Of a stretch of 34,675 nt of DNA, positions 9,826 to 26,047 are shown in pieces. Position numbers and translations under genes: made by a program. The notes under the pieces were generated by a model. That model saw only the letters and a list, made by a program, of their open reading frames with translations. It did not search any database and had not been told where the DNA came from. The DNA comes from Paludibacteraceae bacterium (GTDB taxonomy: Bacteria > Bacteroidota > Bacteroidia > Bacteroidales > Paludibacteraceae), in NCBI GenBank assembly GCA_017401985.1, contig JAFPNK010000057.1, positions 1 to 34,675 on the forward strand, written 5' to 3'. Numbering within the stretch: position 1 is the stretch's first letter; the number at the start of each line of letters is the position of its first letter.

Positions 9826-9827
9826 AG

Positions 9828-9862
9828 GTTATAGGTGAAAGGTTATAGGTGAGAGGTTATAG
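9828..9862. repeat. Heptamer array spanning the dut/TPR junction
   Basis: Five uninterrupted 7-base units alternate GTTATAG (1st, 3rd, 5th) with GTGAAAG and GTGAGAG (2nd, 4th). The fourth unit supplies the GTG start codon of the TPR gene, and units 4-5 encode its first residues. Confidence 0.95.
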
Positions 9863-10868
9863 GCACATATTAGTCGTTGTTCTTGGTTCCTTGTTCTTGG
9901 TTCCGGCATGGGCCAAGAAACCGGTGGCGCATACGCCGGTTCTTACGGTGGAGCAGGAGCAACAATTCACCTACTACTGGTACGCCGCCAAGCAGGCCAT
10001 TGAGGAGGAGCGTTACGCGGATGCGTATGCGTTGCTCGAGTTCTGTCGGCTCATCAACCCGAACGATGCGCAGACGACGGCTTTCTTAGGCGTGTTGTAC
10101 AACGGCATGGGCCAGAAAGCACGGGCGCGGCAGACCTACCGGCGTGCTTTCGAACTGGCGCCAGGCGATCAGTGGTTCCGATACAGCGATGTACTCTTTA
10201 AGTCCGGTACCAAAGAGGATCGAAAAGAAGCCATCCGCGTTTGCGAGACGGCATTCAAACAGCAGAAAGAGTCCGTGAAGAACCACAAGCGGGATCAGGT
10301 GGAGAACGATTTGTTGGAAATGTTGCGCAAGGCCTATATGGAGGACGGGCAATGGAAGAAAGCGCTCGCCATACAAGACGAGATAGACCGCATCACGGGC
10401 TTTGACGATTACAGTGCTTATTACCGTTATCGCATCTATGTGCGTTGGGGTAAAACGAAAAAAGCCATTGAGGTGATTGACCGATATATCGAGCAGGACC
10501 CGACGGATGTACGTTTCTTGAAGTTCCGCATTGAACTGCTGGAATATACCAAAGCGCCGAAGGAGGACATCTATCGCATGTACGACCGCGTGCTGGAGGT
10601 GGAACCGTACAACTTGGAAATTCTCAATTCGTATGCCTATATGATTGCTACGCAGGGCGGAGACCTTAAGAAAGCGGAGCGAATGAGTGCTATTACGATT
10701 CGGGAAGAACCCAACAGCCCCTATTACCTGGACACCTACGGATGGATACTGCACCTGCAGAACCAGGACGATTTGGCGCTCTTCTATCTCAAACGCGCGC
10801 TGTGGAACGCCACGGAAGAAACGGTTCGGGCGGAGATAGAGAAACACATGAGACAGATATCCAAGTGA
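9849..10868 (+). CDS. Tetratricopeptide repeat protein, secreted
   Basis: A 339-residue protein with a signal peptide (MRGYR followed by a hydrophobic core ending VPAWA) and TPR-type helical repeats over the rest, for example YYWYAAKQAIEEERYADAYALLEFC and YSAYYRYRIYVRWGKTKKAIEVIDRYIEQDP. Such proteins are protein-interaction scaffolds, probably periplasmic here. The order dut, TPR protein, DUF4292 lipoprotein, M23-like protein is, as I recall, conserved in Bacteroidales. The start is GTG at 9849: an in-frame TAG directly precedes it, so no earlier start is possible. That GTG lies inside a heptamer array, and the hydrophobic core is encoded by a second heptamer array at 9879-9906. Confidence 0.85.
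   Translation: MRGYRHILVVVLGSLFLVPAWAKKPVAHTPVLTVEQEQQFTYYWYAAKQAIEEERYADAYALLEFCRLINPNDAQTTAFLGVLYNGMGQKARARQTYRRAFELAPGDQWFRYSDVLFKSGTKEDRKEAIRVCETAFKQQKESVKNHKRDQVENDLLEMLRKAYMEDGQWKKALAIQDEIDRITGFDDYSAYYRYRIYVRWGKTKKAIEVIDRYIEQDPTDVRFLKFRIELLEYTKAPKEDIYRMYDRVLEVEPYNLEILNSYAYMIATQGGDLKKAERMSAITIREEPNSPYYLDTYGWILHLQNQDDLALFYLKRALWNATEETVRAEIEKHMRQISK
9879..9906. repeat. Heptamer array encoding the TPR protein signal peptide core
   Basis: Four units, GTTCTTG, GTTCCTT, GTTCTTG and GTTCCGG, encode the VLGSLFLVP part of the signal peptide. A related TTCCTTG array encodes the signal peptide of the lipoprotein gene starting at 20774. Confidence 0.85.
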
Positions 10869-10889
10869 TTGAAGATTGAAGAATGAAGA
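10868..10889. repeat. Heptamer array at the TPR/DUF4292 junction
   Basis: Units ATTGAAG, ATTGAAG and AATGAAG, followed by a decayed AATAGAAG, run from the last base of the TPR stop codon. The ATG of the DUF4292 gene (10883) lies in the third unit. Confidence 0.9.
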
Positions 10890-11434
10890 ATAGAAGATAT
10901 ATTGTATTGTTTTTGGCAGCGCTGCTGATGGTAGGTTGCGGTACCAAGAAGAAGATTCAACCCACGCCGACCGAACCGGTTGCGCCGGCTTGGCATACCT
11001 GTGTGGTGCAGGGCGCTCATGCGACCGTCAGCAGAGGCAACGACCGGTTGTCTGCCACCGTGAACATGCAGACCGTACGCGACTCAATGATCATCATCAG
11101 CGTGATGCCGATGCTCGGAATAGAGATGCTGCGTCTGGAGGCCACCCCGCAACAGATGATTGCCATTGACAAGATACACGGTCAATATGCCGTCACCACC
11201 TTCGAGCAACTCAATCGTCAGTTAACGCCGCAGCTGACCTGGCAGATCTTACAGCAGATCAGCACGGCCGAATTGCCAACCGGCCCCAACAGAGCACGCC
11301 TGCAATACACGCTCGGCAAAGAGACCATTGATATTATCATCGATTATACCACGCCGCAGACCGATGTGCCGGTTCGAATGACCCAACAACGTTTGGACCG
11401 CTACACGAAGGTGGACATCAGTAAGTGGCTGTGA
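10883..11434 (+). CDS. DUF4292 family lipoprotein
   Basis: A 183-residue lipoprotein: a short basic start, a hydrophobic core and the lipobox LLMVGC with Cys at residue 19, followed by lysines. The body matches what I know of DUF4292 in Bacteroidetes, a LolA/LolB-like beta-rich fold, with segments such as DSMIIISVMPMLGIEMLRLEATP and the C-terminal RLDRYTKVDISKWL. By fold it may handle lipoproteins or lipids at the outer membrane, but this is an inference. Its start codon is inside a heptamer repeat, and its stop codon begins the next array. Confidence 0.8.
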   Translation: MKNRRYIVLFLAALLMVGCGTKKKIQPTPTEPVAPAWHTCVVQGAHATVSRGNDRLSATVNMQTVRDSMIIISVMPMLGIEMLRLEATPQQMIAIDKIHGQYAVTTFEQLNRQLTPQLTWQILQQISTAELPTGPNRARLQYTLGKETIDIIIDYTTPQTDVPVRMTQQRLDRYTKVDISKWL

Positions 11435-11458
11435 ATAGTGAATAGTGAATAATGAATA
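11431..11458. repeat. Heptamer array bridging the DUF4292 stop and EnvC-like start
   Basis: Three perfect GTGAATA units and one ATGAATA unit. The stop codon TGA of the upstream gene is in the first unit and the ATG of the downstream gene starts the fourth unit, so the repeat makes up the entire junction. Confidence 0.95.
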
Positions 11459-12624
11459 TTTTTAGATACATCGTATTAAGTTTGGCTGTCGCCTTCTCGG
11501 TAAGCCTTAGTGCGGAGACGGTGAAGGAGCTGCAGGCCAGGCAGAAGAAACTGCAGGAAGAGATAGAGCAGACCAATAAGATGCTCGGTCAAACCAAGCG
11601 TGACGAGACCGCCACGCTCAATAAGTTGCAACTCATTGAACGCAATATTCGTAACCAGAAAGAACTGATTCGAATGCTGGACAGCGAGATTACCGCCCTC
11701 GATTACGAGATGACGATGCTCGGTGGCAAACGTGACTCGCTGCAGGTGGTGCTGGAGCAGCATAAAGAGGAGTATGCGGAAATGATTCGTCACAGTCATT
11801 ACACCCGCATGCAGCAGTCCCCTCTGTTGTTCCTGCTCAGCAGTGACAGTTTTCAACAACTGGCGCGTCGGGCGCGGTACCTGCAGGAGGTCGCGCATTT
11901 CCGTCAGGAGCAGGTTCGGCGTATCGAGAGCACGCAGGCGGAGATAGACATACAGAACGAACTGCTGCAAGCCAGCAAACGGGACAAAGAGAAAGCACTC
12001 ATTACGCGTCAGCGGGAACAGGAGAAGCTCAAACGGGACGAACGCAAACAGCAGGCCATGCTCAATCAGCTTAAGACCAAAGAGAAAGACCTGACCAAGA
12101 AACTGAAGCAGCAGCAGAAGAAAGTGGCGGAGCTGAACAAAAAGATTGATGACATGATTCGCAAGCAGGCGAATGCGAATGCATCCCTCACCAAAGAGCA
12201 GCAACTCATTGCCGGCGGATTCGAAGCCAATAAAGGCCGATTGCCTTGGCCGGTTGAGAAAGGTGTGATCAGCGGACACTTCGGCAGACAGCAGCACCCG
12301 ATATACGCCCAAGTGACGATTGACAACAAGGGTATCTACCTGCAAACGGTAGCCGGAGCCAAAGCCCGCGCCGTGTACAAAGGAGAGGTGACCAGCTGTT
12401 TCATGATTGCCAACACCTACGCCGTCATCATTCAGCACGGTAACTACCGCACCGTCTATTCTAACCTCAGCAAGCTGAACGTCAAACAAGGCGACCAAGT
12501 GGATACCAAACAGGTGATTGGTACCATCTTCACAGACCCCGAACAAGACCAAAAAACGGAATTATACTTCCAGATTTACAAAGATAGAAACATTTTAAAT
12601 CCTGAATTATGGATAGCAAAGTAA
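11452..12624 (+). CDS. EnvC-like murein hydrolase activator, degenerate M23 domain
   Basis: A 390-residue secreted protein. A signal peptide (to about residue 21) is followed by a long charged coiled coil (about 22-250) and a C-terminal LytM/M23 domain (about 265-390) beginning WPVEKGVISGHFGRQQHP. The catalytic zinc ligands of true M23 peptidases are missing: the HxxxD region reads YAQVTIDNKGIYL and the usual HLHFE is replaced by ELYFQI. This fits EnvC-type proteins, which bind and activate amidases at the septum rather than cleave peptidoglycan. It is preceded by a DUF4292 lipoprotein and overlaps the FKBP gene by 16 bases. Confidence 0.87.
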   Translation: MNIFRYIVLSLAVAFSVSLSAETVKELQARQKKLQEEIEQTNKMLGQTKRDETATLNKLQLIERNIRNQKELIRMLDSEITALDYEMTMLGGKRDSLQVVLEQHKEEYAEMIRHSHYTRMQQSPLLFLLSSDSFQQLARRARYLQEVAHFRQEQVRRIESTQAEIDIQNELLQASKRDKEKALITRQREQEKLKRDERKQQAMLNQLKTKEKDLTKKLKQQQKKVAELNKKIDDMIRKQANANASLTKEQQLIAGGFEANKGRLPWPVEKGVISGHFGRQQHPIYAQVTIDNKGIYLQTVAGAKARAVYKGEVTSCFMIANTYAVIIQHGNYRTVYSNLSKLNVKQGDQVDTKQVIGTIFTDPEQDQKTELYFQIYKDRNILNPELWIAK

Positions 12625-13154
12625 AGGTGAAAGGTGAAAGGTTAAAGGTGAAAGGAATCGCAATACTTGCGATTATACTCGTGTGCTTTGCCGGTTGCAA
12701 AGAGAACAAATGGGCGGATTGGAAAGTACAGAACGAAGTATGGCTGCAGAACAATGCGCAGCAGGACGGCGTGGTGGTGACCTCCAGCGGATTGCAGTAC
12801 AAGGTGATTGCTGACCCGGGCAAGGACTTCGGCGAACCTTACCCTAACACGACCAGCACCATTCTGTGCGATTATACGGTTGAACTGATTAACGGATACG
12901 TGGTGGAGAGTAACAATAACGTCTCCATTTCGCTCAGTTCCACTATTCCCGGCTTTGCCGAAGGTTGCCACAAAGTGCATGTACACGGGGACGTAGAACT
13001 CTATATTCCCGCCTACCTGGGTTACGATTACTCCAAGCACGAGAGCGGTGAGTACAATGCGGCCGAAGGTTACGGTACCGAAGGTACCACCGGTTATATA
13101 CCACCCTATTCTACCCTCATTTACAAAGTGCATATATGCGGAATCTCCAATTAA
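12609..13154 (+). CDS. FKBP-type peptidyl-prolyl isomerase lipoprotein
   Basis: A 181-residue lipoprotein with Cys30 in the lipobox VCFAGC. The mature part has the FKBP pattern: SSGLQYKVI, DYTVELINGYVVESN, IPGFAEGCHKVHVHGDVELYIPAYLGYD and IPPYSTLIYKVHI. Several of the usual aromatic pocket residues look substituted, so isomerase activity may be weak. The role is probably periplasmic folding of secreted proteins. The start overlaps the end of the EnvC-like gene. Residues 4-16 (KVKVKGERLKVKG) come from a heptamer array, giving an unusually long, highly basic n-region before the signal core. Confidence 0.8.
   Translation: MDSKVKVKGERLKVKGIAILAIILVCFAGCKENKWADWKVQNEVWLQNNAQQDGVVVTSSGLQYKVIADPGKDFGEPYPNTTSTILCDYTVELINGYVVESNNNVSISLSSTIPGFAEGCHKVHVHGDVELYIPAYLGYDYSKHESGEYNAAEGYGTEGTTGYIPPYSTLIYKVHICGISN
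12621..12654. repeat. Heptamer array at the start of the FKBP gene
   Basis: A 6-base partial unit (GTAAAG) is followed by four heptamers: units 1, 2 and 4 are GTGAAAG and unit 3 is GTTAAAG. The stop codon of the EnvC-like gene (12622-12624) lies in the partial unit. In the FKBP frame the array encodes VKGERLKVKG. Confidence 0.95.
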
Positions 13155-13636
13155 GTTGGTTCGCTTGTGTGCTGTGTGCGTTGTTGGGACTGAGCGCTTG
13201 TGAAGGCTCGTCGTTCCGGAACAGCGTACCGGCGTACCCCGTGCGCGTGGTGGTGGACACACGCTCCGGGGCGTTTGTGCATTTTCAACCCACTAATCTT
13301 AATGCGAACGTGGTGGTTAACCGCAACGGGTATTTTCTGAACGGAGAGTACGTGCTGCCCTTAGGTGCGACCGACATGTACGGTTACGGAGGCGTGGTGC
13401 TCTTCGTCAGTCTGTACGGTTACGATGCCTACGATCTGGCGTGCCCGTACTGCGCGTTACACGGACAGAAACAGTCCTGTACCATCGACGGTTTCTATGC
13501 CGAATGTGACAAGTGCGGTGAGAAATACGACCTGGGCTCCGGTTACGCACTGCCTACACAAGGCCTCAGCCACGAAGCGCTACGAAGACTGAACATCATC
13601 AATTCCGACGGCAAACTAACCGTCACGCAACAATAA
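13136..13636 (+). CDS. Rieske-like four-cysteine lipoprotein
   Basis: A 166-residue lipoprotein (lipobox LLGLSAC, Cys22). The C-terminal half has the layout of a Rieske fold: a first loop ACPYC (Cys103, Cys106), a second loop CDKCG (Cys124, Cys127), then YDLGSG and a final proline-containing strand. Classical Rieske proteins use CxH and CxxH to bind 2Fe-2S; here both loops are CxxC, so zinc or a rubredoxin-type iron site is more likely. An extra Cys115 is present. The physiological role is unknown. It overlaps the FKBP gene by 19 bases and shares one base with the next gene (TAATG). Confidence 0.6.
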   Translation: MRNLQLSWFACVLCALLGLSACEGSSFRNSVPAYPVRVVVDTRSGAFVHFQPTNLNANVVVNRNGYFLNGEYVLPLGATDMYGYGGVVLFVSLYGYDAYDLACPYCALHGQKQSCTIDGFYAECDKCGEKYDLGSGYALPTQGLSHEALRRLNIINSDGKLTVTQQ

Positions 13637-14040
13637 TGATTACAAAAGACGATTTATTCTCCATCGGTTATCTGAAGCGCACGCATAACGATGACCTGCC
13701 GGAATTCGTGTTCGTGCAACGCGACGGGCTGTTCGTGCCTTTCCGTTCCGAACAGATCGCGTCCCTCATGGGCGAAGAGATCTGGTTGCAGCGAAGTGAT
13801 ATAGAGGAGATAGAAGACGGCATGTTCCTCTGGCAGGACCTGGTCGGATACACGGTCATAGACAAGAAAGCGAATGGCGAAGGAGTAACCGTAGGTGTGA
13901 TTGCCGAGGTCGATGAGAGTACCATCAACACGCTCGCCACGCTGGAAGACGGACGAATGATGCCGCTGCACGAAGATTTTATTATTGCTATCGACGAAGA
14001 CGCACATGAACTCCATGTGCAACTACCTTTTGAACTATGA
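13636..14040 (+). CDS. rimM: RimM-like ribosome maturation factor, shortened
   Basis: RimM binds ribosomal protein S19 and helps mature the 30S head. The 134 residues keep the general order: an N-terminal beta-barrel part (FSIGYLKRTH, GLFVPFRSEQI, EIWLQRSDIEEIEDGMFLW), then the PRC-barrel part (LVGYTVIDK, GVIAEVDESTINTLATLEDGRMMPLHEDFIIAIDEDAHELHVQLP). The family is usually about 165-180 residues; here some 30-40 residues of the first barrel are missing after TH, where homologues have a GxRG-type segment. It lies in a coupled chain (TAATG upstream, ATGA downstream) and directly precedes an RNA methyltransferase, which agrees with an RNA role. Confidence 0.72.
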   Translation: MITKDDLFSIGYLKRTHNDDLPEFVFVQRDGLFVPFRSEQIASLMGEEIWLQRSDIEEIEDGMFLWQDLVGYTVIDKKANGEGVTVGVIAEVDESTINTLATLEDGRMMPLHEDFIIAIDEDAHELHVQLPFEL

Positions 14041-14600
14041 GTCTCAAACTGACAACGGCCGAAATGGGTCGCATGAATATCGACCAGTATCGCGAAGCGG
14101 ATAAACTGCCGTTAGTGGTGGTGCTGGATAACGTACGCAGCCAGCATAACGTAGGGGCTGTGTTCCGTACGGCGGATGCGATGCGTATTGAGCGCGTGGT
14201 GCTCTGCGGTATCTGCTGCTGCCCGCCTAACCAAGAGATCCACAAGACGGCGCTGGGTGCGGAAGAGAGTGTCGATTGGCAGTACTACCCTCAGACCTTA
14301 GACGCTGTGCGCGCCTTGCAAGCGGAAGGATACACCGTGTATGCCGTCGAACAAGCACACGACTCCGTCACACTCGAAGAAGTGGCAGAAAAGGTGAGAG
14401 GTGAGAGGTTAGAGGTGAGAGGGATCGCCGTCGTATTAGGCCATGAAGTGTTCGGTGTTCAACAAGAAGTAATAGATCATTGCAGTCAATGCATAGAGAT
14501 TCCTCAATATGGAACGAAGCACTCGATGAACGTGTCGGTAACGGCAGGCATCGTGATGTACCGCTTAGCCTCCTCTCTCCGGCACGCGACAAGAGCGTAG
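14037..14600 (+). CDS. TrmH/SpoU family RNA 2'-O-methyltransferase
   Basis: A 187-residue SPOUT methyltransferase using S-adenosylmethionine to methylate a ribose in tRNA or rRNA. The three family motifs are present: LDNVRSQHNVGAVFRTADA (30-48), VVLGHEVFGV and IPQYGTKHSMNVSVTAGI near the end, which form the knot and cofactor pocket. Between motifs 1 and 2 the protein contains KVRGERLEVRG, encoded by a heptamer array. The start overlaps the rimM stop (ATGA). The end overlaps the U32 peptidase frame by up to 121 bases, so motif 3 is encoded in the same DNA as the U32 N-terminus. Confidence 0.88.
   Translation: MSLKLTTAEMGRMNIDQYREADKLPLVVVLDNVRSQHNVGAVFRTADAMRIERVVLCGICCCPPNQEIHKTALGAEESVDWQYYPQTLDAVRALQAEGYTVYAVEQAHDSVTLEEVAEKVRGERLEVRGIAVVLGHEVFGVQQEVIDHCSQCIEIPQYGTKHSMNVSVTAGIVMYRLASSLRHATRA
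14394..14421. repeat. Heptamer array inside the TrmH-family gene
   Basis: Four units: 1, 2 and 4 are GTGAGAG and unit 3 is GTTAGAG. It encodes VRGERLEVRG in frame. The order of units and the following GGATCG parallel the array at 12627-12654, which is followed by GAATCG. Confidence 0.95.
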
Positions 14601-16024
14601 CCCAAGCTGCTATCCAAGCAGGAGCGGATGCCATCTATATCGGCGCTCCGGCTTTCGGTGCACGACAAGCAGCCGGTAACAGTCTGGAGGACCTCGAAGA
14701 GGTCGTTCGTTATGCGCATACGTACGGGGTGCAGGTGTTGGTGACGCTCAACACGCTGCTGTACGAACACGAGTATGCGCAGGCGGTACAGATGGCACAT
14801 GACCTGTACCGCATCGGCGTGGATGCGCTCATCATTCAGGACTTACATCTTCTCGATTACAATCTGCCCCCTATTCGTTTGCACGCCTCCACCCAATGCG
14901 ACAACCGCACGCCGGAACAGGTGGCGTACCTGCGCGACCGGGGATTCAAACGCGTGGTACTCGCCCGCGAACTATCTATAGACGAGATACGTGCTATTCA
15001 TGAAGCGGTGCCGAATATCGAACTGGAAGCCTTCGTACACGGTGCCCTCTGCGTATCCTATTCGGGACGGTGTTATATATCCGAAGTGCTGGCTAACCGC
15101 AGTGCCAACCGAGGTGCCTGTGCACAGTTCTGCCGCATGGCGTATGACCTGCTGGACGCGAACGGGAACGAGGTGCCGGATGAAAACGGGCAACCTATCC
15201 ATCAGCGGTACCTGCTCTCGCTGCAAGACCTGGACCGCAGTGCGTACCTCAATGAACTAATCGAAGCCGGCGTAACGACCTTCAAGATAGAAGGACGACT
15301 CAAAGATGCGGATTACGTAACGAACATCACCGCGTACTATCGGGAGAAAATTGATAGTCTTACAGCGAAGCGGTCCTACAGCGATAGCGGTCTTACTTCC
15401 TACAGCGAAGCGGTCTACAAACGCACGTTTGTACCAGATCCCGAGAAGACTTTTCACCGCGGGGCAACCGATTACTTCCTGCACGGCCGCACACGACCGA
15501 TGGCCAATTGGGACACGCCCAAATCGACAGGCGAATATATCGGTGAGGTGCTTGAAGCGCATGGGAATAGTCTGCGCGTGCGGCTTAAGCAAGGCGTCAC
15601 GCTCCATAACGGCGACGGTCTGACCATCGGAGCGGAAGGCTTCAACGTCAACGGCGTGGAAGGAAACATCGTGAAGATTAACAAAAACCTTTCACCGCTC
15701 ACCGCTCACCTTTCAACTAAATTATTCCGAAATCTGGATACAGAGTTCGTGAACAATTTGCACTCCGAACGCCGCATCCCCGTGGATATCCTTTTCCGCG
15801 AGACGGAAGAGGGGTTCCTTCTGCGTATCGGCGATAAAGAACAACATTTTGCTTATGCCAAAGAACCTGCTCGCAATGCGGAGAAGGCGTTGGAGACCAT
15901 CCGTACGCAGCTCAGCAAACTCGGCGACACGCCGTACATTGCCCGCGAGGTGCGAATAGAAACCCAACCGTATTTTATACCGATTAGTGTACTGAACGAA
16001 TGGAGACGAACTACGATCATCTGA
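14480..16024 (+). CDS. Peptidase U32 family protein, main part
   Basis: A 514-residue protein of the U32 (collagenase-like/RNA-modification associated) family. The TIM-barrel part runs from LLSPARD (31-37) through QAGADAIYIGAP. The U32 signature FVHGALCVSYSGRCYISEVLANRSANRGACAQFCR is at about 185-219, with cysteines that in related proteins can hold an Fe-S cluster. A DUF3656-like region ends at IPISVLNEWRRTTII. Homologues start near residue 29, but the only in-frame ATGs are at 14480 and 14489, giving a long overlap with the TrmH gene. Two repeat-derived inserts are present: about 294-312 (TAKRSYSDSGLTSYSEAVY) and 403-413. The usual C-terminal cysteine segment is in the next frame. Confidence 0.8.
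   Translation: MQSMHRDSSIWNEALDERVGNGRHRDVPLSLLSPARDKSVAQAAIQAGADAIYIGAPAFGARQAAGNSLEDLEEVVRYAHTYGVQVLVTLNTLLYEHEYAQAVQMAHDLYRIGVDALIIQDLHLLDYNLPPIRLHASTQCDNRTPEQVAYLRDRGFKRVVLARELSIDEIRAIHEAVPNIELEAFVHGALCVSYSGRCYISEVLANRSANRGACAQFCRMAYDLLDANGNEVPDENGQPIHQRYLLSLQDLDRSAYLNELIEAGVTTFKIEGRLKDADYVTNITAYYREKIDSLTAKRSYSDSGLTSYSEAVYKRTFVPDPEKTFHRGATDYFLHGRTRPMANWDTPKSTGEYIGEVLEAHGNSLRVRLKQGVTLHNGDGLTIGAEGFNVNGVEGNIVKINKNLSPLTAHLSTKLFRNLDTEFVNNLHSERRIPVDILFRETEEGFLLRIGDKEQHFAYAKEPARNAEKALETIRTQLSKLGDTPYIAREVRIETQPYFIPISVLNEWRRTTII
15361..15415. repeat. Element B copy 1, inside the U32 gene
   Basis: Three TACAGCG-AGCGGTC units, at 15361-15375, 15377-15392 and 15401-15415, with TTACTTCC between the last two. 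The 40-base block 15376-15415 matches 25746-25785 in the DHH gene at 34 positions. Here it reads in the coding direction. Confidence 0.85.
15690..15717. repeat. Heptamer array inside the U32 gene, reversed orientation
   Basis: Units CTTTCAC, CGCTCAC, CGCTCAC and CTTTCAA are the complement of the GTGAAAG type. It encodes LSPLTAHLST. It is the only clear coding array of this family with the pyrimidine-rich strand as sense. Confidence 0.9.
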
Positions 16025-16185: not shown

Positions 16186-17327
16186 TGCATCAACTACTCT
16201 GTATATTGGCATTGATACTCCATGTTCATTCGGGACAAAGCATCCAAACGGCAGTGGACAGCGCGCGCACGGTGTATGCCGAGCGGGGAGAGCGAACGAC
16301 GATTCTGATTGAACCGGGTACGTATCAGGAGCAGCTGACCATCGATGTGCCGGGACTGAAACTAAAGAACGCTTCGCGCCATCCGTCTATTGCGCTTAGG
16401 AACGGAGGCGTGGACTGCGATCCCAATGCCGTTCGTATCAGCTGGTACTACGGGCACGGGTATCAATACAAGAGTATGGACACCATCAATTACGGCGGCA
16501 GTCGTTCGCGGCGATGGAACGCGTCCGTACTGGTGACCGCACCGGATTTCTATGCGGAGAACATTATTTTCGAGAATAGTTTTAACCTCTACGTGTCGGA
16601 AAGAGAGGCGCAGGACAGTCTTTATGTGCTGCCGGAATATACTGCTCGTCCGATGCCTGAGCGTCCCAAGCAAGCGGGTTCGACGGCCGTGCAACTCAAA
16701 GCCTATCGCGAACGCGCTGCCGCGCTTTCCTTCACCGAAACGGCTACTCATGCGCATCTGAAGAACTGCCGCGCCGTGGGACGGCAAGACGTGTTATACG
16801 GTGACCAAGGCGCTTCTGTCTATTGGCAAGAGGGCATATTGCAAGGAGGCGTGGATTTTATCTTCGGTGCCATGACCTTAGCGGTAGATAAAGCCTTGCT
16901 TATTGCCGCTATCAACGGGGAAAAAGGAGACAAGTGTTATATTGCCGCCGGCCGCAGCGAAGGCACACGAGGCATGCTCTTCTACAAATGCCATATTCGC
17001 CTTGCCACAGAAGAGGAGTTACAAATCATAAATCATAAATCACAAATCACAAATACCACACCTGCGGTCTGGTTATCCCGCCCTTGGCGTTCCTGGGGTG
17101 AGACCGTGTGGGCCTATACGACTTGGGAAGAAGGGATTGTTCACCCCGAGGCGTGGAGTACCGGATTGATACAAAAACGTCCGGAGTATGATGCACTCAA
17201 CCCCTGCCCGAACAGTTACGAATACCGTTCGCAAGGGGACATAAAAAACCGCCCGGCGTGGGTGAAGATTTTGTCCAAACCCATCTTACCGGACGGTACA
17301 CGCATTCGCGTTAGTAATTGGCGATGA
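16182..17327 (+). CDS. Pectinesterase-like enzyme (CE8)
   Basis: A 381-residue secreted right-handed beta-helix enzyme expected to remove methyl esters from pectin homogalacturonan. A signal-like N-terminus (MMHQLLCILALILHVHSG) is followed by SIQTAVDSA and IEPGTYQEQL, typical of CE8. The catalytic signatures are present: GRQDVLYG (Asp near 203), GGVDFIFG (Asp near 225) and LSRPWR (Arg near 303). A heptamer array inside the gene encodes QIINHKSQITN in a loop before the LSRPWR strand. It is an odd carbohydrate enzyme at the end of a housekeeping-like run, with no other pectin genes nearby. Its stop codon abuts the stop of the convergent lipoprotein gene. Confidence 0.88.
   Translation: MMHQLLCILALILHVHSGQSIQTAVDSARTVYAERGERTTILIEPGTYQEQLTIDVPGLKLKNASRHPSIALRNGGVDCDPNAVRISWYYGHGYQYKSMDTINYGGSRSRRWNASVLVTAPDFYAENIIFENSFNLYVSEREAQDSLYVLPEYTARPMPERPKQAGSTAVQLKAYRERAAALSFTETATHAHLKNCRAVGRQDVLYGDQGASVYWQEGILQGGVDFIFGAMTLAVDKALLIAAINGEKGDKCYIAAGRSEGTRGMLFYKCHIRLATEEELQIINHKSQITNTTPAVWLSRPWRSWGETVWAYTTWEEGIVHPEAWSTGLIQKRPEYDALNPCPNSYEYRSQGDIKNRPAWVKILSKPILPDGTRIRVSNWR
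17022..17056. repeat. Heptamer array inside the pectinesterase gene
   Basis: Four units of the form YAAATCA (CAAATCA or TAAATCA) are followed by a decayed CAAATAC. The array is in frame and encodes QIINHKSQITNT. Confidence 0.9.
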
Positions 17328-17714: not shown

Positions 17715-17766
17715 ACTGATTTGTTTTTAATTAGTGAATAAATAATTATTATTGATTGATTGTTTG

Positions 17767-18663: not shown

Positions 18664-18683
18664 AAATTTCCTAATTTTGGGCA

Positions 18684-18731: not shown

Positions 18732-18735
18732 CGGC

Positions 18736-19392: not shown

Positions 19393-19395
19393 ATT

Positions 19396-20784
19396 ATGAA
19401 ATATCAAATATCAAAAACGAAGTTAATCGCGCCCTTGCGGCAGAGAAATATCAAATATCAAATTGTGCTGCTCGCCGCAGTACTGCTCGCTTCCTGTCAG
19501 TTCCGCGAGAACGAATGCGTTGATTTCACGGATTTGGACGGGGCGAAGGATCTGAAGTTCCAAGTCATCAGCCAGCATGAGACCGACCTGAGCGAAGGCC
19601 TGCCGATGAACTGTTACCTGCCGGATGGCACTTCCGTTTGGGATTATACCGAAGAAGCCGAAGAAATAGAAGAGACAGACGGACCCCAACCGAAGAAAAC
19701 CAGTAGCGTCACCGGTACGGCGATTGTGCAGGAGTTACTCAAGTACGGCAAGCAGAACAAGGTCATTGAGATAGTCGGCACCTACCCCAGTGTGGACGGA
19801 CAAGGTAACCCCGTAGTGCTGTCCGGTAAGGTGATGCTGCCCAAGGGACGCAAACCCAAACGGCTTATTCTCGTCAGCCACTACACCGTGGGTTCGAACG
19901 GCGAAGCGCCCAGTAACTGCTTCTCGCTCGAAGGCATACTCGTTAAGTTAGGTTACGGTCTGATTCTGCCCGACTACCGCGGGTACGGCATCACCGTCAA
20001 TGATGTGCACCCGTACCTCGTGATGATGGAAACGGCTATCAATGTGACGGATATGTATTTCGCGGTGCGCGACTGGCTCAAAGCGGCGAACATGGAACCC
20101 GAGAAACCGGAGATCTACCTGATGGGTTACAGTCAGGGCGGTGCGAACACCATGGCGGTGGAGTACTTGTGCGAAACGGCGTATGACGATCCGAGCGATC
20201 CGGATTACTACATCCCTATCCACCGCGTGTTCGCCGGTGGCGGACCGTATGATGTCAAAGCTACCTACGAGCGTTTTGTCAATACCGACACCGCCAGTTA
20301 CCCGATTGCCGTTCCGCTCGTGCTGCAAGGCATGATCAAAGGTAATAACCTCAACATGGAGTTAAGTGACATGATGCAACCCTGGCTTTGCGAACACATT
20401 GACGAGTGGGTGAACAGCAAACAATACACCACCGGACAGATGAACAAACTGCTCGGCACTTACGTGACGCACGAACTGCTGACCGAGGAAGCGATGAACC
20501 AAACTTCCGACAAAGTGGCGGAACTGTACAAAGCGATGACCGAAAACTCCGTCGTAACCTACAACTGGGAACCGCAGGCACCTGTCTATATCATGCACTC
20601 GATGGACGATGAGACCGTACCGTACACCAATGCCACCAATGCCAAAGCACGGTGGCACAATGCGAACATAACGTATAACTTCGGCCACTACGGAGGACAC
20701 GTCAAGACCTGCTTGCGATTCATCTACACCGTACAAACATTATTAGAGCAAGAAGAAGCAGAAAGGAGTCAATATGAAAAATAG
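19396..20784 (+). CDS. Alpha/beta hydrolase lipoprotein, secretory-lipase-like
   Basis: A 462-residue lipoprotein (lipobox LLASC, Cys34) with an alpha/beta hydrolase fold. The nucleophile elbow GYSQGG has Ser near residue 245, the acid is likely Asp in the MDDETVPY segment near 402, and the His is in GHYGGH near 430-435. The segment PKRLILVSHYTVGSNGEAPSN and the lid region resemble secretory lipases and large esterases. The substrate is unknown. The n-region before the signal core is unusually long and contains KYQI twice, encoded by two copies of an 18-base direct repeat. It overlaps the next gene by 11 bases. Confidence 0.8.
   Translation: MKYQISKTKLIAPLRQRNIKYQIVLLAAVLLASCQFRENECVDFTDLDGAKDLKFQVISQHETDLSEGLPMNCYLPDGTSVWDYTEEAEEIEETDGPQPKKTSSVTGTAIVQELLKYGKQNKVIEIVGTYPSVDGQGNPVVLSGKVMLPKGRKPKRLILVSHYTVGSNGEAPSNCFSLEGILVKLGYGLILPDYRGYGITVNDVHPYLVMMETAINVTDMYFAVRDWLKAANMEPEKPEIYLMGYSQGGANTMAVEYLCETAYDDPSDPDYYIPIHRVFAGGGPYDVKATYERFVNTDTASYPIAVPLVLQGMIKGNNLNMELSDMMQPWLCEHIDEWVNSKQYTTGQMNKLLGTYVTHELLTEEAMNQTSDKVAELYKAMTENSVVTYNWEPQAPVYIMHSMDDETVPYTNATNAKARWHNANITYNFGHYGGHVKTCLRFIYTVQTLLEQEEAERSQYEK
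19398..19462. repeat. 18-base direct repeat at the lipase lipoprotein start
   Basis: GAAATATCAAATATCAAA occurs at 19398-19415 and 19445-19462, 47 bases apart; each copy contains two ATATCAA heptamers. The segment between encodes KTKLIAPLRQRN. The second copy alone would give a normal short signal-peptide start. Confidence 0.95.
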
Positions 20785-21697
20785 CATTAAGACCGTATGG
20801 GGTCGACTAATCGTTTTAGTCCTTGTTCCTTGTTCCTTACTCCTTTGCCCTTCCTGTGACCCCAACGCCAGATGGGCATCGGAGAATGTGGGGATAAACA
20901 TGCGGGTGGAGGCCATTTCCGCCGGGTTCATCATATGCGAGTTCACTACCACCCAAGAGGCGTATTATCTGATTGCTATCGAAGAAGCACGGCCGGGTTA
21001 CAACCCCATGGAGCACCAGAAGTCGTTTATGAGTTCGGCGCTCGACTCCGCATACGCGGCGTATCTCGATTGGCGTAACGAACTGTGGCGCAAAGATGTG
21101 TTCAATGTGGCTCCCTTCTCCAGTCACTCCCTGCAGTACGGCAACGAGTATTATACCTTCACCGGCCTCAAACCGGACACCGAATACTGGGTCTACGCGT
21201 TTGTCGTGAACCCGGCTTCTATGGAACCGGCCGGACTACTGGTGCTGGATAGCATCACCACCCCGACTTACAGTGACATCCATATGCAATACGAATACCG
21301 CGTCAAGGGACTATGGGACTACACCTACCCCATGGATGATTACGGGATCATAGAGACCCGTTTCCCCTATCTGGCCATCACATGCGACAGTACGCAAGTA
21401 GCAAAAGAGGGACTGACACCGGAGAAGTATTTCGCACGCTGGTACACCGAACAATACAACCATCCGGAGAACGCCAAAATCCTGTATGGCGTCAAAGCCG
21501 TAGAGAACGACGGTGTGAGCAGTTGGGTGGAGTTCGAAGAAGGACACACATACTACACCACGATTGCCAGCTTTGACGGACCGTACAGCCATATGGTGAC
21601 CTATAAGTTCACCTGGACCAAAGACTTTCAGTGTTACTTCAGAGAAGACTATGAAGCTTTGATCGTGGACAATTATGACTTTGACTCCGACGAATGA
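20774..21697 (+). CDS. Lipoprotein with fibronectin-III-like region
   Basis: A 307-residue lipoprotein: MKNSIKTVWGRLIVLVLVPCSLLLCPSC, with Cys28 as the likely lipidated residue. The first part (GINMRVEAISAGFIICEFTTTQEAYYLIAI ... GNEYYTFTGLKPDTEYWVYAFVV) has the fibronectin type III strand pattern, and the second part repeats a similar layout (FEEGHTYYTTIASFDG). No enzymatic motif is seen. It is probably a surface or periplasmic binding protein working with the lipase-like lipoprotein it overlaps. The signal-peptide core is encoded by degenerate TTCCTTG heptamers. Confidence 0.7.
   Translation: MKNSIKTVWGRLIVLVLVPCSLLLCPSCDPNARWASENVGINMRVEAISAGFIICEFTTTQEAYYLIAIEEARPGYNPMEHQKSFMSSALDSAYAAYLDWRNELWRKDVFNVAPFSSHSLQYGNEYYTFTGLKPDTEYWVYAFVVNPASMEPAGLLVLDSITTPTYSDIHMQYEYRVKGLWDYTYPMDDYGIIETRFPYLAITCDSTQVAKEGLTPEKYFARWYTEQYNHPENAKILYGVKAVENDGVSSWVEFEEGHTYYTTIASFDGPYSHMVTYKFTWTKDFQCYFREDYEALIVDNYDFDSDE
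20819..20853. repeat. Degenerate heptamer array in a lipoprotein signal peptide
   Basis: Five units (GTCCTTG, TTCCTTG, TTCCTTA, CTCCTTT, GCCCTTC) encode LVPCSLLLCPS. They are related to the array in the TPR gene signal peptide at 9879-9906. Confidence 0.75.
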
Positions 21698-22164
21698 AAA
21701 TCACCCTTCTGGTCGTTGGTAAGACGACCGATGCCCGCATTGCCTCGCTCATTGACGAGTACCGTCAACGGCTCACGCATTATGTGCCGTTTGAGTTCGT
21801 GGTGCTGCCGGATCTGAAGAATGCCAAAGCGCTGAGCGAAGAGCAGATCAAGGCGGCGGAAGGGGAACTTATTCTACGCGCCCTCACACCGGCCATGGAG
21901 GTGATTCTGTTGGACGAACACGGCCGCGAGATGCGGTCGGTCGAGTATGCCGATTGGTGGCAGAAGAAAATGGGTTCCGGACGCGACCTCACGCTCATCA
22001 TCGGCGGCCCCTACGGCTTCAGCAAAGCGGTGTACGACCGCGCAGACGGCAAGCTGTCGCTCAGCCAAATGACCTTCTCTCATCAGATGATACGAATAAT
22101 GGCCATTGAGCAGATCTACCGCGCAATGACCATTCTTCGGGGTGAACCGTACCACCATGAGTGA
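21694..22164 (+). CDS. rlmH: 23S rRNA pseudouridine(1915) N3-methyltransferase
   Basis: Methylates pseudouridine 1915 in helix 69 of 23S rRNA, on assembled ribosomes. The 156 residues match this very conserved family: MKITLLVVGKTTD at the start, EVILLDEHGREMRSVEYADW, the cofactor-binding LIIGGPYGFSKAVYDRAD, LSLSQMTFSHQMIRIMAIEQIYRA and the C-terminal GEPYHHE. The start overlaps the preceding lipoprotein gene by 4 bases (ATGA). The stop TGA at 22162-22164 directly abuts the stop of the convergent M23 gene. Confidence 0.97.
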   Translation: MKITLLVVGKTTDARIASLIDEYRQRLTHYVPFEFVVLPDLKNAKALSEEQIKAAEGELILRALTPAMEVILLDEHGREMRSVEYADWWQKKMGSGRDLTLIIGGPYGFSKAVYDRADGKLSLSQMTFSHQMIRIMAIEQIYRAMTILRGEPYHHE

Positions 22165-23193
22165 TTACCTCACTCTTATCTTCATGCCAATCTGAAGGAT
22201 CTTCGTCTCCTTGATGTTATTCAACTGACACAGTTTCTTAACGGTGGTGCCGTATTTCTTGGCAATGCCGCTCAGCGTATCTCCTTGTTTCACTTTGTGA
22301 TACTTCATCGCCGCCTGCTCTGCGCGTTGCTGCTTCAGGGCTTTGATACCGATGACGTATTCGTCGCTGTTACGCAACTGTCCTGTAGTGAAATCAATGA
22401 ACTTAGCGGGGTCGATAGCTTCGCCCAGGTAGCGAATCTCGAAGTGCAAGTGACTGCCGGTGGAACGGCCGGTGTTACCACCTAAACCGAGCACATCGCC
22501 TGCCTGCACACGTTCGTATTCATCCACGAGCGGACGACTCATGTGACCATAGACGGTCTCCAGACCGTTGGTGTGACGAACGACCACAAAATAGCCGTAG
22601 CCGCGCGGATCCCAACCGACGATACGCACCTGACCGTCCCATGCCGAACGTATCGAATCGCCGATCTGCACCTTGATGTCCGTTCCTTTATGCATCCGGT
22701 AACGGCGCCATCCGTAACTGCTGGTCACGTAGCCGTTATGCGGCAAACGGAAGCCCGCCATCGGGATATGCACATCGTCTTTCAGACTGTCGAACATCGT
22801 GCCGTAGGGGTTCACGCGCTCGTCTGTCCAAATATGATTATAGATACTGTCCGCCGGGTGATTGTTCATCAGCGCCGTGTCGTTCATCATGAACTGCGGT
22901 GCCATCTTATAAATCACATCGCCGTCTTTGGTGCGCACCACGATCTTACGCGGCAGCACTTCCAGGTCACAACCCAAGATCAGCGTATCGTGCGAGAACA
23001 AACCGGCCAGACACTCCGGCAGCGGAGTTGCCTTTACATCCAACTCATCCAAGTCTTCCAACTCATCTCCTTCACTGTCTACAGCCGTACTGTCTATCGG
23101 CAACTGCTCAGCAGCCACAGCCGGCACTTCCTGCGCATTTAATGGAAGCAGAAGCAGTGAAAGCAAAATCCACAAAGATACAAAATAACGCAT
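22165..23193 (-). CDS. M23 metallopeptidase with C-terminal LysM domain
   Basis: A 342-residue secreted endopeptidase acting on peptidoglycan cross-links. The signal peptide is [21 protein letters not shown]. The M23 domain has zinc ligands intact: His168 and Asp172 in [10 protein letters not shown], and His248/His250 in [15 protein letters not shown] lies between. The C-terminal LysM ([29 protein letters not shown] ... [11 protein letters not shown]) binds glycan. The start at 23193 is preferred over an upstream in-frame one at 23238 because it gives a clean signal peptide. Even so the gene overlaps the end of the EF-hand gene by 55 bases. Unlike the EnvC-like protein in this window, this one should be catalytic. 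Confidence 0.92.
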
Positions 23194-24782
23194 ACTAAAC
23201 AAACTAATAATAAGATTATACCTAACGACAGAAGCCATTTTGCTCCTGTGCTCATTCCTTTCTTAAACGGGTCCTTGGTCAAGGGGAACTTAACCTGCTC
23301 GGTGAGCGTACGACCGAACGGAACCGAGATGAGTGCATCCGCATTCACTGCCCATCCGTTCGCATTGAGCACCGGAGCCAAGTTACGACGACGCAGTTTG
23401 AGCCACGCCATCACCATACTCGGACCGCTGATGAGAAGCAAGATGCCGACGAACACGAGGATCTGTTGCCACCAGGTTAAGGTGATCCATCCTTGTGCCA
23501 CGCTCACTAACATCGTACCGATCATACCTAAGGCCATGCCGATGGCAGCGAAGATACCGGCGAACTTAGCTATATCGAAAGCCGGCTTCGGCGCTTCCCC
23601 TTCACCTTTCACCATCAGCCCTTCGCCCTTACTGGTCATATCGCCCATCACGGCTGCATCTTTCTCCGCAGCGGACTTATTGATCTTCTCTTCAATCCAT
23701 TTCGACAGCTTGCGATACGGCGTCCAGAAGGCTTGACGAATAGAAATCGGGTTATCAATGATCTTGAACACCGTAGCGTCGTAATCGAGTCCGGCATTGT
23801 CGTAGAACACACCGTTCTTGCCGACGCTCAGGTTCTTAATCTCACCTTGCGTCATGGCAGCCACGATCTGCATCTTCTTACCCTCTTTCTTGTTCACGCA
23901 GTCGCAGTACAGCAGATACATACCGCTCAGCGGAGCCTGTGCGTCATGCTTCGGCAACTCGTTCACGCGAATACACAGACGACACGCGCGCTGGTCGATG
24001 ATCAGCGTTCCGGCTTGGAACGAAGCGATCGTCTCGGGGTTATGGTCATAGAAATCCTCGAACGCCACATAACTGCGCAGCAAGCGGTAGAAATCGCGAT
24101 GCAGCAACAGCAGCTTGCGCAGCGGAGCGTATTCGGCTTTGGCTGCCGCGAGTTCACTTTCAACTCTCGACTTTTCAGTCTCCACTGCCGATTCCCATTC
24201 GGCTATCTTCGCGCCCATTTCGAGGAACTTCTTCTCCGTCATGCCGGGCTTCGGAGTCTCTTCCGGGATAACCGCCAGACCCAGTTTCTGCAGTTTCTCC
24301 TGCTCAAAATAGGCGGCATACTCCGTCTGCTTCTCTTTGTACGCGGCAATGACGTCTGCCTCGTACGGTGCATCGGGCACTGCCTGCGCCTCCACCGTCA
24401 CGGTTTCTATAGCTGCTTGCACGGCAGCGAGACTAACCACACCATCAGACGCTAACCGCTCACCCATAACCCGTAACCCTTCATCGGCGATATTTTCAAT
24501 CGCGATGCTATCGCTCTGCTCCAGCAGCGTGTCGGGGTTCTTGAGGGTAGCGCACAGCCAATCAGCCGTAGCAATCACCTCTTTGAGACGCAACTGACCG
24601 TCGCCGTCCGCATCCATCAGACACAACGATTCGGAACTGATCTCCAAACCATTCACCGGACAGGACAGCACCGTCCATTTTTTCTTGTCCAACTCACCCA
24701 GGTGACGAATATCCTCACCCGATTGAATACGTACGCGTGTTGCACCGCCTACGTTGGCAAAACTCCATTTGTAATCGCTCAT
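23139..24782 (-). CDS. EF-hand containing membrane protein
   Basis: A 547-residue protein without a signal peptide. A single EF-hand loop [12 protein letters not shown] is at 57-68. Residues 140-240 are charged and helical. Membrane segments are at about 405-470 (two or three) and 522-545, and the protein ends in a cysteine- and phenylalanine-rich tail ([11 protein letters not shown]). I recall similar uncharacterised proteins in Bacteroidales but no assigned function. Two heptamer arrays interrupt it: near 102-111 (LRVMGERLA) and 383-395 ([12 protein letters not shown]), both apparently in linkers. It lies 25 bases downstream of the DHH gene and is probably cotranscribed. Confidence 0.7.
23598..23633. 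repeat. Degenerate heptamer array 2 in the EF-hand gene
   Basis: Five loose units (CCCTTCAC, CTTTCAC, CATCAGC, CCTTCGC and CCTTACT as read on the plus strand) correspond on the coding strand to GTGAAGG-type heptamers encoding [13 protein letters not shown]. Confidence 0.7.
24450..24477. repeat. Heptamer array 1 in the EF-hand gene
   Basis: Plus-strand units CGCTAAC, CGCTCAC, CCATAAC and CCGTAAC. On the coding strand they encode LRVMGERLA; the units that would place TGA in frame carry GTT. Confidence 0.9.
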
Positions 24783-24807
24783 ATCCTTAATTCTTTAAAT
24801 CATTCAC

Positions 24808-25926
24808 TCATTCATTCTTTACATACTTCGCGTATGTTTTCTCAAATAGTGCAACGGCTTGGTTCAGACTGCCGAACAGCTCGCCTCCGGAGGCATTGGC
24901 GTGTCCGCCGCCGTGGAACACTTCGTTCGCCCATACGTTCACCGGCCGGTCTCCTTGCGAGCGGAACGAGATACGAATGCGCGGCTTGGGTGTGCCGGGT
25001 TTGGGACGCTCCTCACGCATATAGACCGAGTAACGCACATCGGCAATCTGCAGCGGCATGTTCACCAGTCCCTCCGTGTCACCGGCTTTGTAGTGGTACT
25101 GATCCAACTCGTCGGCCGAAAGGGTGATGAGCGCCAGGTGATGCTCCGGATAGATACGCATCTTACGGTACAGCGCGTAGCCTATGAGCCGCATGCGGTC
25201 CGTGGAGTACTGATTGAACACCGCGTCGTAGATTGCATCTTTCCGCACGCCCGCACGCACCAGTTCAGCCACGATTTCGTATAACTCACAACTGGTGGAG
25301 TTATATTGAAAATTACCCGTATCGGTCATCAGACCGGTGTAGATACAGGTGGCAATCTGCGTGTTTACAGCGAAGCGATCATCGACTATCAGTCGATACA
25401 CTATCTCGCAGCTGGAACTGGCTTCGGGAAACGAGAACTCTACATTAGCCCACGACCCTTCACCGCTAACCGATAACCGCTCACCGCTCATCTTTATATG
25501 GTGATCAATCATAATCTTCGGGCACGTGTTGGCCATCATCTTCTCGCCCATCGGTCCGATGCGTTTAGGGTCGTTGAAGTCTGTGCAGATGAACAAGTCC
25601 GCTTGCTCAATCAGCGGGTCGCACACGCGGGCATTCCCCTCGTACACCTTCACCTGCTCCACCCCTGGCATCCAATTGAAGAACGCCGGAAACGCATTCG
25701 GCACAATCACACTCACCTCTCTTACAGCAGGCGCTGCCTGCGGTCCTTCAGCGTCAGCGGTCTTACTTCTTTCAGCGAAGCGATCCATCACATAGTGATA
25801 TACCGCCAGCGCCGAACCCATCGCATCGCCATCGGGTGCCATGTGGGTCACAATCACTATTCGCAGCGCTTTTTCTATCAGCGCCTGCGCCTGTTCAACC
25901 TGCTTGCTATCTAACGTACACGCCAT
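24808..25926 (-). CDS. DHH family phosphoesterase (NrnA-type)
   Basis: A 372-residue protein of the DHH/DHHA1 family; NrnA members degrade nanoRNA and dephosphorylate pAp. Motifs: THMAPDGDAMGSA (27-39), the DHH triad at 141-143, MTDTGNF (200-206) and the substrate-binding GGGHANASGG near 339-348. The start at 25926 (MACTLDSKQVEQ) is used because the -7 box of its promoter occupies 25946-25953; an upstream in-frame start would be untranscribed. Two insertions relative to the family are repeat-derived: about 48-68 (element B) and about 146-157 (KMSGERLSVSGEG, heptamers), the latter directly after the DHH motif. It is the first gene of a minus-strand operon with the EF-hand and M23 genes. Confidence 0.9.
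   Translation of the reverse strand: MACTLDSKQVEQAQALIEKALRIVIVTHMAPDGDAMGSALAVYHYVMDRFAERSKTADAEGPQAAPAVREVSVIVPNAFPAFFNWMPGVEQVKVYEGNARVCDPLIEQADLFICTDFNDPKRIGPMGEKMMANTCPKIMIDHHIKMSGERLSVSGEGSWANVEFSFPEASSSCEIVYRLIVDDRFAVNTQIATCIYTGLMTDTGNFQYNSTSCELYEIVAELVRAGVRKDAIYDAVFNQYSTDRMRLIGYALYRKMRIYPEHHLALITLSADELDQYHYKAGDTEGLVNMPLQIADVRYSVYMREERPKPGTPKPRIRISFRSQGDRPVNVWANEVFHGGGHANASGGELFGSLNQAVALFEKTYAKYVKNE
25365..25380. repeat. Single element B unit in the DHH gene
   Basis: TTACAGCGAAGCGATC matches one unit of element B. It encodes DDRFAVN on the coding strand, just before the conserved TGLMTDTG strand. Confidence 0.6.
25457..25491. repeat. Heptamer array in the DHH gene
   Basis: Plus-strand units CCTTCAC, CGCTAAC, CGATAAC, CGCTCAC and CGCTCAT. 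On the coding strand they encode MSGERLSVSGEG, inserted immediately after the DHH metal-binding motif. Confidence 0.92.
25721..25785. repeat. Element B copy 2, inside the DHH gene
   Basis: It has the same layout as copy 1 in the U32 gene: two TwCAGCG-AGCGGTC units, TTACTTCT, then a final unit TTCAGCGAAGCGATC. Here it runs against the coding direction, and the reading frame stays open (DRFAERSKTADAEGPQAAPAV). Confidence 0.85.
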
Positions 25927-25945
25927 ACTATTCCAATTTACGCTG

Positions 25946-25976
25946 CAAAGGTACAAAAAATAAATGACATACGCAA
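25946..25976 (-). promoter_or_regulatory. Promoter of the DHH phosphoesterase operon
   Basis: On the minus strand TTG is at 25976-25974, followed by a 20-base spacer and TACCTTTG at 25953-25946. The -33 region is CTTGCGTATGTC, identical to that of the lipid kinase promoter. The start of transcription near 25941 gives a leader of about 15 bases. Confidence 0.85.
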
Positions 25977-26019
25977 GTATGCGCGTGTATTTTTTGCAAA
26001 ATGAGCAAAAAACAGCTGC

Positions 26020-26047
26020 CTTTCAACTTTCAACTTTCAACTTTCAC
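26020..26047. repeat. Heptamer array in the promoter of the BspA-like gene
   Basis: Three perfect CTTTCAA units and one CTTTCAC unit lie 10-38 bases upstream of a -7 box, across the place where a -33 element should be. Confidence 0.95.

Follow-up and report, generated by a model that had tools for sequence, protein, structure and literature searches.

Dispersed arrays of tandem heptamers are already known from several bacteria, and they also mark the stretch analysed here, a contig of 34,675 nucleotides (JAFPNK010000057.1, our contig C121, hereafter the window) from the assembly GCA_017401985.1 of a Paludibacteraceae bacterium (1.95 Mb in 121 contigs, 82% complete; our genome G000). New in this case are the turnover of units seen on comparison of related genomes, a vocabulary of units specific to each genome, and arrays without G tracts. 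A search of the open-access literature gave, among the matches listed, no title describing such arrays in Paludibacteraceae.

The excerpted account of Geobacter metallireducens reports 49 elements of four tandem heptanucleotides, located between and within genes and predicted to be regulatory RNA elements (PMC2700814). Our arrays resemble these in comprising about four tandem heptamers dispersed between and within genes, although the preferred size is only weakly expressed in the window's own genome. They differ in that the Geobacter elements consist of a single GC-rich unit, for which the same excerpts report no turnover between species (PMC2700814), and a doublet of the Geobacter consensus GGACCGG was found in none of 258 loci. 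For the heptamers GGGAATC and GGGGAYT of Xanthomonas and Nostoc, the available parts of the source describe a clear preference for four units and a strong non-coding bias; four units are the minimum for a G-quadruplex, and the role was left open after examination of quadruplex formation (PMC4692102). Dispersal, the preference for four units and variation of length and sequence between related organisms are shared with our arrays, many of which, in contrast, lie within genes. Moreover, units such as AAATCAT and CAATTCA favour 4 to 5 copies without containing G tracts, which speaks against quadruplexes as the necessary cause of a preference for about four units. Quadruplex-type units (GGGANTN) occurred as single doublets in 6 of the 258 loci, and the frequent units here lack G tracts.

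Direct repeats of TAACTGA, in sets of two to six, are described in the excerpted source for Beggiatoaceae, cyanobacteria and five Bacteroidetes; most of them immediately precede start codons, and no mechanism of transmission was evident (PMC4679880). The likeness to our arrays lies in the copies inside genes, found at protein peripheries, and in other heptamers that accompany TAACTGA in some Bacteroidetes, while the use of one unit and the placement mainly before start codons set that system apart. No TAACTGA doublet was found in the 258 loci.

Cyanobacterial heptamer short tandem repeats (STRR) are likewise dispersed with period 7 and are mainly intergenic. A reading of the window made from sequence only had suggested them as a possible parallel, which holds for appearance, namely period and dispersal, whereas membership in this class did not follow: a doublet of TTGGTCA, one STRR unit, was present in just 3 of the 258 loci, and 28 of the 62 arrays of the window's genome lie inside open reading frames (ORFs). 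Calothrix heptamers are also mentioned in the report on Xanthomonas and Nostoc (PMC4692102). Finally, the Rickettsia palindromic elements, as excerpted, are units of about 150 bp encoding a conserved peptide that is tolerated in-frame inside unrelated genes (PMC10969869). They share with our arrays the tolerance of short dispersed repeats in-frame within unrelated genes, and differ in being palindromic by name and not tandem heptamers. The comparison of related genomes makes it testable in these bacteria how heptamer arrays arise and spread.

Period-7 excess in the window, its genome and its relatives

At least a dozen loci with tandem 7-base units had been proposed for the window, and 7-base periodicity was recovered by self-match at offset 7 at all 14 places listed, one of which (19401-19461) resolves into two arrays. 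In 13 of the 14 places, 62–95% of positions matched at offset 7, compared with 25% on average for random 35-mers of the window, whose 99.9th percentile is 75%; eight of the 13 lie above this percentile, two equal it and three (starting at 9828, 9879 and 23598) fall below. The span 19401-19461 reached 41% overall, with ordinary sequence separating its arrays at 19395-19415 and 19446-19463. Tandem Repeats Finder (score ≥30) recovered 12 of the 14 places, and a stricter scan (score 11) returned 11 arrays covering ten of them; both missed 23598-23633 and 24450-24477, while 9824-9863 and 9877-9904 were best scored as period 14.

Counting imperfect arrays with a single threshold for all periods, the window held 11 arrays of period 7, none of period 6 and one each of periods 8 and 9, and one third-order Markov shuffle of the window yielded none at period 7. 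A further 470,924 bases of the same genome, comprising 389,332 bases from contigs matching window sequence and 81,592 bases from contigs picked by number, gave 40 arrays at period 7 against 9, 14 and 7 at periods 6, 8 and 9; the contigs picked by number only contributed 6 against 1, 3 and 4. The excess over neighbouring periods predicted from the sequence was hence observed well outside the window. The window itself is about 3.7 times denser in arrays than the remaining sample (2.9 expected, Poisson P 2.5e-4), although this P value is not a fair test, because the window was picked for its arrays. Among the four sister genomes with a background sample, the syntenic region carried more arrays per 10 kb than the background in G022 (3.76 vs 0.34, the background being only 30 kb), G003 (2.43 vs 1.10), G006 (3.52 vs 1.70) and G002 (1.50 vs 0.40).

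Relatives were sampled by searching named genomes for the SpoU-family methyltransferase encoded in the window and retaining the best 80 of 248 loci (1.46 Mb). The matches come from gut assemblies labelled mostly as Bacteroidales or Paludibacteraceae, and at least six of the 80 loci apparently duplicate contigs of G002, G003, G004, G006, G021 and G022. These loci held 365 arrays at period 7 against 15, 68 and 37 at periods 6, 8 and 9, and 383 kb of genome G015, in stretches selected for one heptamer, held 137 against 1, 22 and 11. Eight other species of the genus (200 kb) showed 7 against 3, 5 and 3, with period 12 commoner (9), and in 200 kb from nine genomes of other Bacteroidales families period 7 was not enriched (1 against 1, 1 and 3). 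The period-7 bias belongs to part of this bacterial group; it is not wholly confined to it, since CCTTTCA occurs in tandem at three places in G034, a member of another family. Period 8 ranked second among periods 6–9, with 68 arrays in the 80 loci; in the background sample of G002 its 5 arrays compare with 4 of period 7. Period-8 arrays often have 3.5–5 units as well, so that the period may be no more important than an overall length near 30.

As an alternative to a spreading element, arrays might originate and lengthen where they stand through polymerase slippage by seven bases at a time, a proposal made for heptamer repeats of bacteria generally, in which case each unit would be whatever heptamer stood at the site. 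In the 80 loci and G015, as in the window and the remainder of its genome, period 7 ranks first, in keeping with slippage of this kind, and the idea that seven bases correspond to the segment contacted by the polymerase is reported in the excerpts of two of the studies above (PMC4679880, PMC4692102). A general property of polymerases it is not, however, for the nine genomes from other families of Bacteroidales show no enrichment of period 7. We regard slippage as an unlikely, if serious, explanation, and the units themselves, described in the following, speak against it. Mismatch-repair loss was considered and rejected: mutS1 scored above the cut-off in 39 of 41 genomes, including G000, G003, G006, G015 and G022, while G018, for which no match was obtained, is an assembly only 54% complete.

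Re-use of sites and genome-specific units

The SpoU-family methyltransferase gene carries a GGTGAGA/GGTTAGA array (14392..14422, plus strand) in a loop of the protein. At the position of this loop (14392-14422), four sister genomes have arrays of other units, namely AAATCTC (G022), AAATGGT (G003), AAATCGT (G002) and AGTTGTC (G006), and G004 has no array. Across the 80 loci the loop contains an array in 24 (score ≥11) that fall into 20 unit classes, and in 34 at the lower score of 9. The arrays are hence not ordinary conserved protein sequence, the finding that the sequence-only reading had named as one refutation of its proposal. The loop is probably exposed, judging by its variability and not from a model. 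Dozens of related uncultured gut species with one protein loop, 24 arrays and 20 unit classes amount to a natural experiment by which local slippage and copying in trans can be told apart, and such arrays are a source of rapid in-frame change in protein loops.

In a tree of the flanking sequence, the sister loci L167 and L176 have different units in loops of equal length, and wholly different loops occur in close relatives (L144 vs L148 and L149; L179 vs L184). Apart from the related loci considered below, loop lengths showed no 21-base stepping. The loop array of L197 is interrupted by AGATCGGAAGA, which we take to resemble sequencing-adapter sequence, so that the assembly is probably wrong there. 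Re-use of sites is not restricted to the methyltransferase: the array sites of the window carry an array in 12 of 41 mapped cases in the sister genomes (10 of 41 at the stricter score), compared with 173 of 11,744 random intervals (98 of 11,645), which were drawn without matching for tolerance to change.

Analysis of the units revealed that each genome draws on a vocabulary of its own. At score 10, the window's genome has 62 arrays in 39 unit classes, which bears out the earlier statement that the period is kept while the units differ, and these arrays form 49 same-class pairs, compared with a mean of 2.9 and a maximum of 11 expected from intergenic heptamers (500 draws). Four tandem patterns were searched in 41 genomes, with overlapping matches within one array counted separately, and their profile differs by genome (chi-square P 8e-38 for six genomes, from overlapping hits). 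In the order G000, G003, G006, G022 and G015, AAATCAT gave 11, 8, 32, 22 and 3 hits, CCTTTMA 32, 3, 16, 0 and 56, AATYACC 3, 24, 10, 0 and 4, and ACCCGTA 0, 1, 4, 6 and 0; the 32 CCTTTMA hits of G000 represent 17 places. The reversed forms of AAATCAT and ACCCGTA gave no hit in any of the 41 genomes. Same-class pairs were 3.5 times commoner within a locus (66 of 977) than between loci (1,086 of 56,993).

Whether the units in the methyltransferase loop match this vocabulary was assessed for four chosen units in the same 20 genomes, with counts that include the loop's own array; the reversed controls of all four units gave no hits. CAATKCA gave 100 hits in its focal genome and 29, 7, 7, 6 and then at most 2 in the other 19, AATCATC 24 in its focal genome and at most 5 elsewhere, and MAATGGA 118 and 16 in its two carrier genomes and at most 6 elsewhere. 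Three of the four tests support a genome-specific source of the loop units, while one (AATKACG, see below) does not. Variants recur as well: in G060, 27 of 45 arrays carry A>C at the first position of the unit, and in G055, 26 of 45 carry T>G at the fifth. Selection on the reading frame does not explain these variants, because neither the unit nor the variant creates a stop codon on that strand.

Slippage alone does not predict units that are common to unlinked loci and differ by genome, nor one second variant recurring at one unit position. The shared mechanism postulated from the window is supported as a period-specific process across the lineage, while genome-specific units, re-use of sites and array size point beyond slippage as the shared cause. 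A rule of the form T-N-A for the units on the G-poor strand was also pursued by eye and set aside: the share of TNA-containing sequences is 89% among the 62 units of G000 and 57% among GC-matched intergenic heptamers, and variable positions are modestly enriched there (0.28 vs 0.17 overall), but the units are not independent and we make no claim.

Array size, array ends and a possible route of copying

The arrays cluster around a typical size. Of 99 coding arrays in G015, 84 contain 3.5 to 5.5 units; among coding arrays of the 80 loci, the most populated class is that of 4.5 to 5 units (58 of 259), whereas arrays of periods 6 and 9 are commonest at 2 to 3 units. The commonest array length in the 80 loci was 32 bases (37 of 269). 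Ends are also preferred: among the arrays listed, two of the seven end phases take 33 of 42 arrays in G060 and 39 of 47 in G055, with ends falling on the word that begins many arrays inside and outside genes (starts being looser in G055), and the AGCYAAN arrays of G015 favour two or three phases. Such a hump in copy number, seen in G015 and in the 80 loci, is not predicted by slippage, and the favoured sizes, the end words and the variants recurring across unlinked loci together mean that local slippage alone explains the arrays poorly.

Sizes and ends of this kind could also be produced by a dedicated writer, a telomerase-like, trans-acting enzyme whose nucleic-acid template specifies the heptamers and which would extend broken or gapped DNA by a fixed number of units. 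It would account for the genome-specific units, the size near 32 bases, the preferred end words and the replacement of units at one site, but we consider it improbable, as each genome holds several vocabularies and no candidate gene was found, with Rfam giving nothing in the window. Reverse transcriptase was rejected for this role, since PF00078 is present in 12 of the 41 genomes (including G002, G015 and G018) and was not found in G000, G003, G006 and G022, assemblies that are 75–88% complete. A more general form, with a trans-acting template in each genome (an RNA or a master DNA array) and an enzyme that would fill breaks or gaps with arrays of about four and a half units, different words thereby being written into one protein loop by related species, appears rather doubtful, if slightly less so than the telomerase-like version.

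Instead, we favour ectopic copying between arrays within a genome, bounded by microhomology and combined with local gain and loss of units, a reading that accommodates the shared units and variants and the humped size, and to which we assign a probability of about one half. According to this proposal, the arrays would be copies of short dispersed elements built from heptamers, typically 4 to 5 units long. A strand under replication or repair might use a word of about 3 to 5 bases to switch onto a heptamer array at another site of the genome, copy some of its units and return through the same word. Local gain or loss of units would subsequently alter the length, by steps of 21 bases where the frame must hold, and selection would retain those copies that do little harm, namely at gene junctions, N-termini, signal peptides and variable loops and without in-frame stops. 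The special status of seven would be left to the first origin of the arrays or to the copying step. We infer the copying in trans, its microhomology boundaries and the enzymes involved from these patterns.

Several observations weigh against ectopic copying. Simple copying does not by itself explain why the period is seven, and no donor–recipient event was caught among the species-level genomes compared. The sister loops L171 (69 bases) and L180 (90 bases) differ by one 21-base step, and the related loops L195 (57 bases) and L194 (78 bases) likewise by 21 bases of array, which fits local change, and L186 (99 bases) is in line with such steps; slippage from a local seed may have produced these three-unit differences. 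In the window's genome the size hump is weak, with 15 of 31 coding arrays below 3 units. Lengths modulo 7 over 456 arrays are uneven (36, 40, 69, 61, 93, 79 and 78; P 3e-7, excess at 4), but this statistic treats arrays shared by related species as independent, and of the four sets taken singly only the 80 loci are significant. The unmatched random intervals affect the evidence for re-use of sites, and the stretches of G015, G060 and G055 were selected for holding a heptamer pattern.

The vocabulary is not free of exceptions either. Reversed CCTTTMA has hits in six genomes, up to 6 in G012 against 1 forward, and reversed AATYACC (8 against 4 forward in G002; 3 in G001, 4 in G033 and 1 in G004) exceeds the forward count in G001, G002 and G033. 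The fourth loop unit, AATKACG from L142, has 5 hits in its focal genome, 3 of them probably the loop itself, and 12 and 8 in two other genomes. For 4 of 24 loop arrays the unit was met again within the locus of about 20 kb; shuffling gave 1.0 on average and at most 4 (300 shuffles), which makes this a weak test, and with one mismatch allowed the figures are 12 against 7.4 (maximum 14), which is not significant. Comparison of coding arrays with array-free orthologues gave length differences that ranged between −27 and +26 residues and did not peak at 7 residues (110 of 144 compared), and this scatter led us to reject clean insertion of whole units as a general rule for coding arrays. Several of the array-free orthologues hold other dispersed repeats instead.

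Placement relative to genes was examined with ORFs called by a simple longest-first rule. Of the 62 arrays of G000, 28 are contained in ORFs, a further 23 extend over an ORF end and 11 are intergenic; for random 28-mers the share contained in ORFs is 92%. In both the FKBP and the SpoU arrays, the unit in which an in-frame TGA would arise reads TTA. The preference for gene edges (34 of the 62 arrays, if those over an ORF end and the intergenic ones are taken together) would suit arrays kept for a function, as regulator binding sites, terminators or RNA elements, and regulatory roles are proposed in the excerpts on the Beggiatoaceae (PMC4679880) and Geobacter (PMC2700814) repeats. Inverted TTTCAAT/CCTTTCA pairs at G015 junctions, which might fold, would fit as well. 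We nevertheless hold such a function to be very unlikely: the edge preference is equally predicted by tolerance, units change at one site between related species, each genome uses many units, and many arrays lie inside unrelated housekeeping genes.

Equally remote, in our view, is the movement of miniature elements by a transposase in the manner of the Rickettsia palindromic elements. It would be in keeping with small dispersed repeats inside genes and with other short dispersed repeats in the same loops, but inspection of array flanks by eye revealed no shared sequence, palindrome or terminal inverted repeats, the number of units varies, and the repeats are direct heptamers; some junctions in G015 do pair two inverted arrays. 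In these composite elements some 20 bases separate a TTTCAAT array from an oppositely oriented CCTTTCA array, and they occur at several places (L119 11388-11505, L137 9685-9788 and similar). The element might fold as an imperfect hairpin.

Positions of the arrays and other dispersed repeats

The genes of the window are unremarkable and include a dUTPase, a TPR protein, a DUF4292 protein, an M23 peptidase, an FKBP, RimM, the SpoU methyltransferase, a U32 peptidase and a pectinesterase, among others; neither Rfam families nor tRNAs were found in the window. The GGTTATA/GGTGAAA/GGTGAGA array at 9824..9863, strongest as period 14, bridges the end of the dUTPase gene and the start of the TPR-protein ORF, which in its N-terminal hydrophobic stretch contains a 14-mer present twice, each copy made of two heptamers (9877..9906). 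An ATTGAAG array (10867..10898) covers the junction of this ORF with the DUF4292 gene including the DUF4292 start, and a GTGAATA array (11431..11458) spans the DUF4292 stop and the M23 peptidase start, a junction whose orthologous interval carries an array in four of six sister genomes. The GTGAAAG/GTTAAAG array at 12621..12655, which spans the M23 stop and the N-terminus of the FKBP-type ORF, belongs to the frequent CCTTTMA vocabulary of the genome.

Downstream of the methyltransferase loop, a TCACCGC array (15685..15717) lies within the U32 peptidase gene, where other heptamer-like units were seen by eye, below the scoring threshold, in G022 and G003, and an AAATCAT/AAATCAC array (17021..17056) within the pectinesterase gene is also present in G006 with diverged units. 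A LIP-family ORF holds a TATCAAA array at its start (19395..19415) and an AAATATC array in its N-terminus (19446..19463), and a TCCTTGT array (20816..20853) falls into the signal-peptide-like region of the ORF at 20774-21697, which has no Pfam match. The minus-strand ORF at 23139-24782 contains a decayed heptamer-like stretch (23598..23633), the weakest of the set, and a decayed TMACCNN array (24450..24477); at the latter site a related array is found in G003, and ordinary sequence of approximately equal length in G002, G006 and G021. A TCACCGC/TAACCGA array (25457..25491) is located in the DHH-family gene on the minus strand.

Other short repeats occur alongside the heptamers. A second dispersed repeat, AGCGAAGCGGTC with variants, is found inside genes of the window (15357-15420 and 25730-25795) and fills the same methyltransferase loop in L144, L177, L191 and L211; the exact 12-mer is present in 35 of the 258 loci, some of them overlapping. 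It contains GCGAAGC, a very stable DNA mini-hairpin. Palindromes of the CCCTCTCCACAGGGAGAGGG type and further repeats (L171, L184, L187 and others) were observed in pectinesterase and further genes at places where relatives carry heptamer arrays, so that several kinds of short repeat share tolerant sites.

Lastly, a CTTTCAA array (26020..26051) lies between divergent genes, just upstream of what we take to be the TAnnTTTG-type promoter motif of a BspA-type LRR gene. The adjoining TTTTTTTGTACCTTTGCAGCCGCAAAGG (26049-26082), presumably a promoter stretch of the Bacteroidetes type, includes a small inverted repeat and recurs at many places in the genome.

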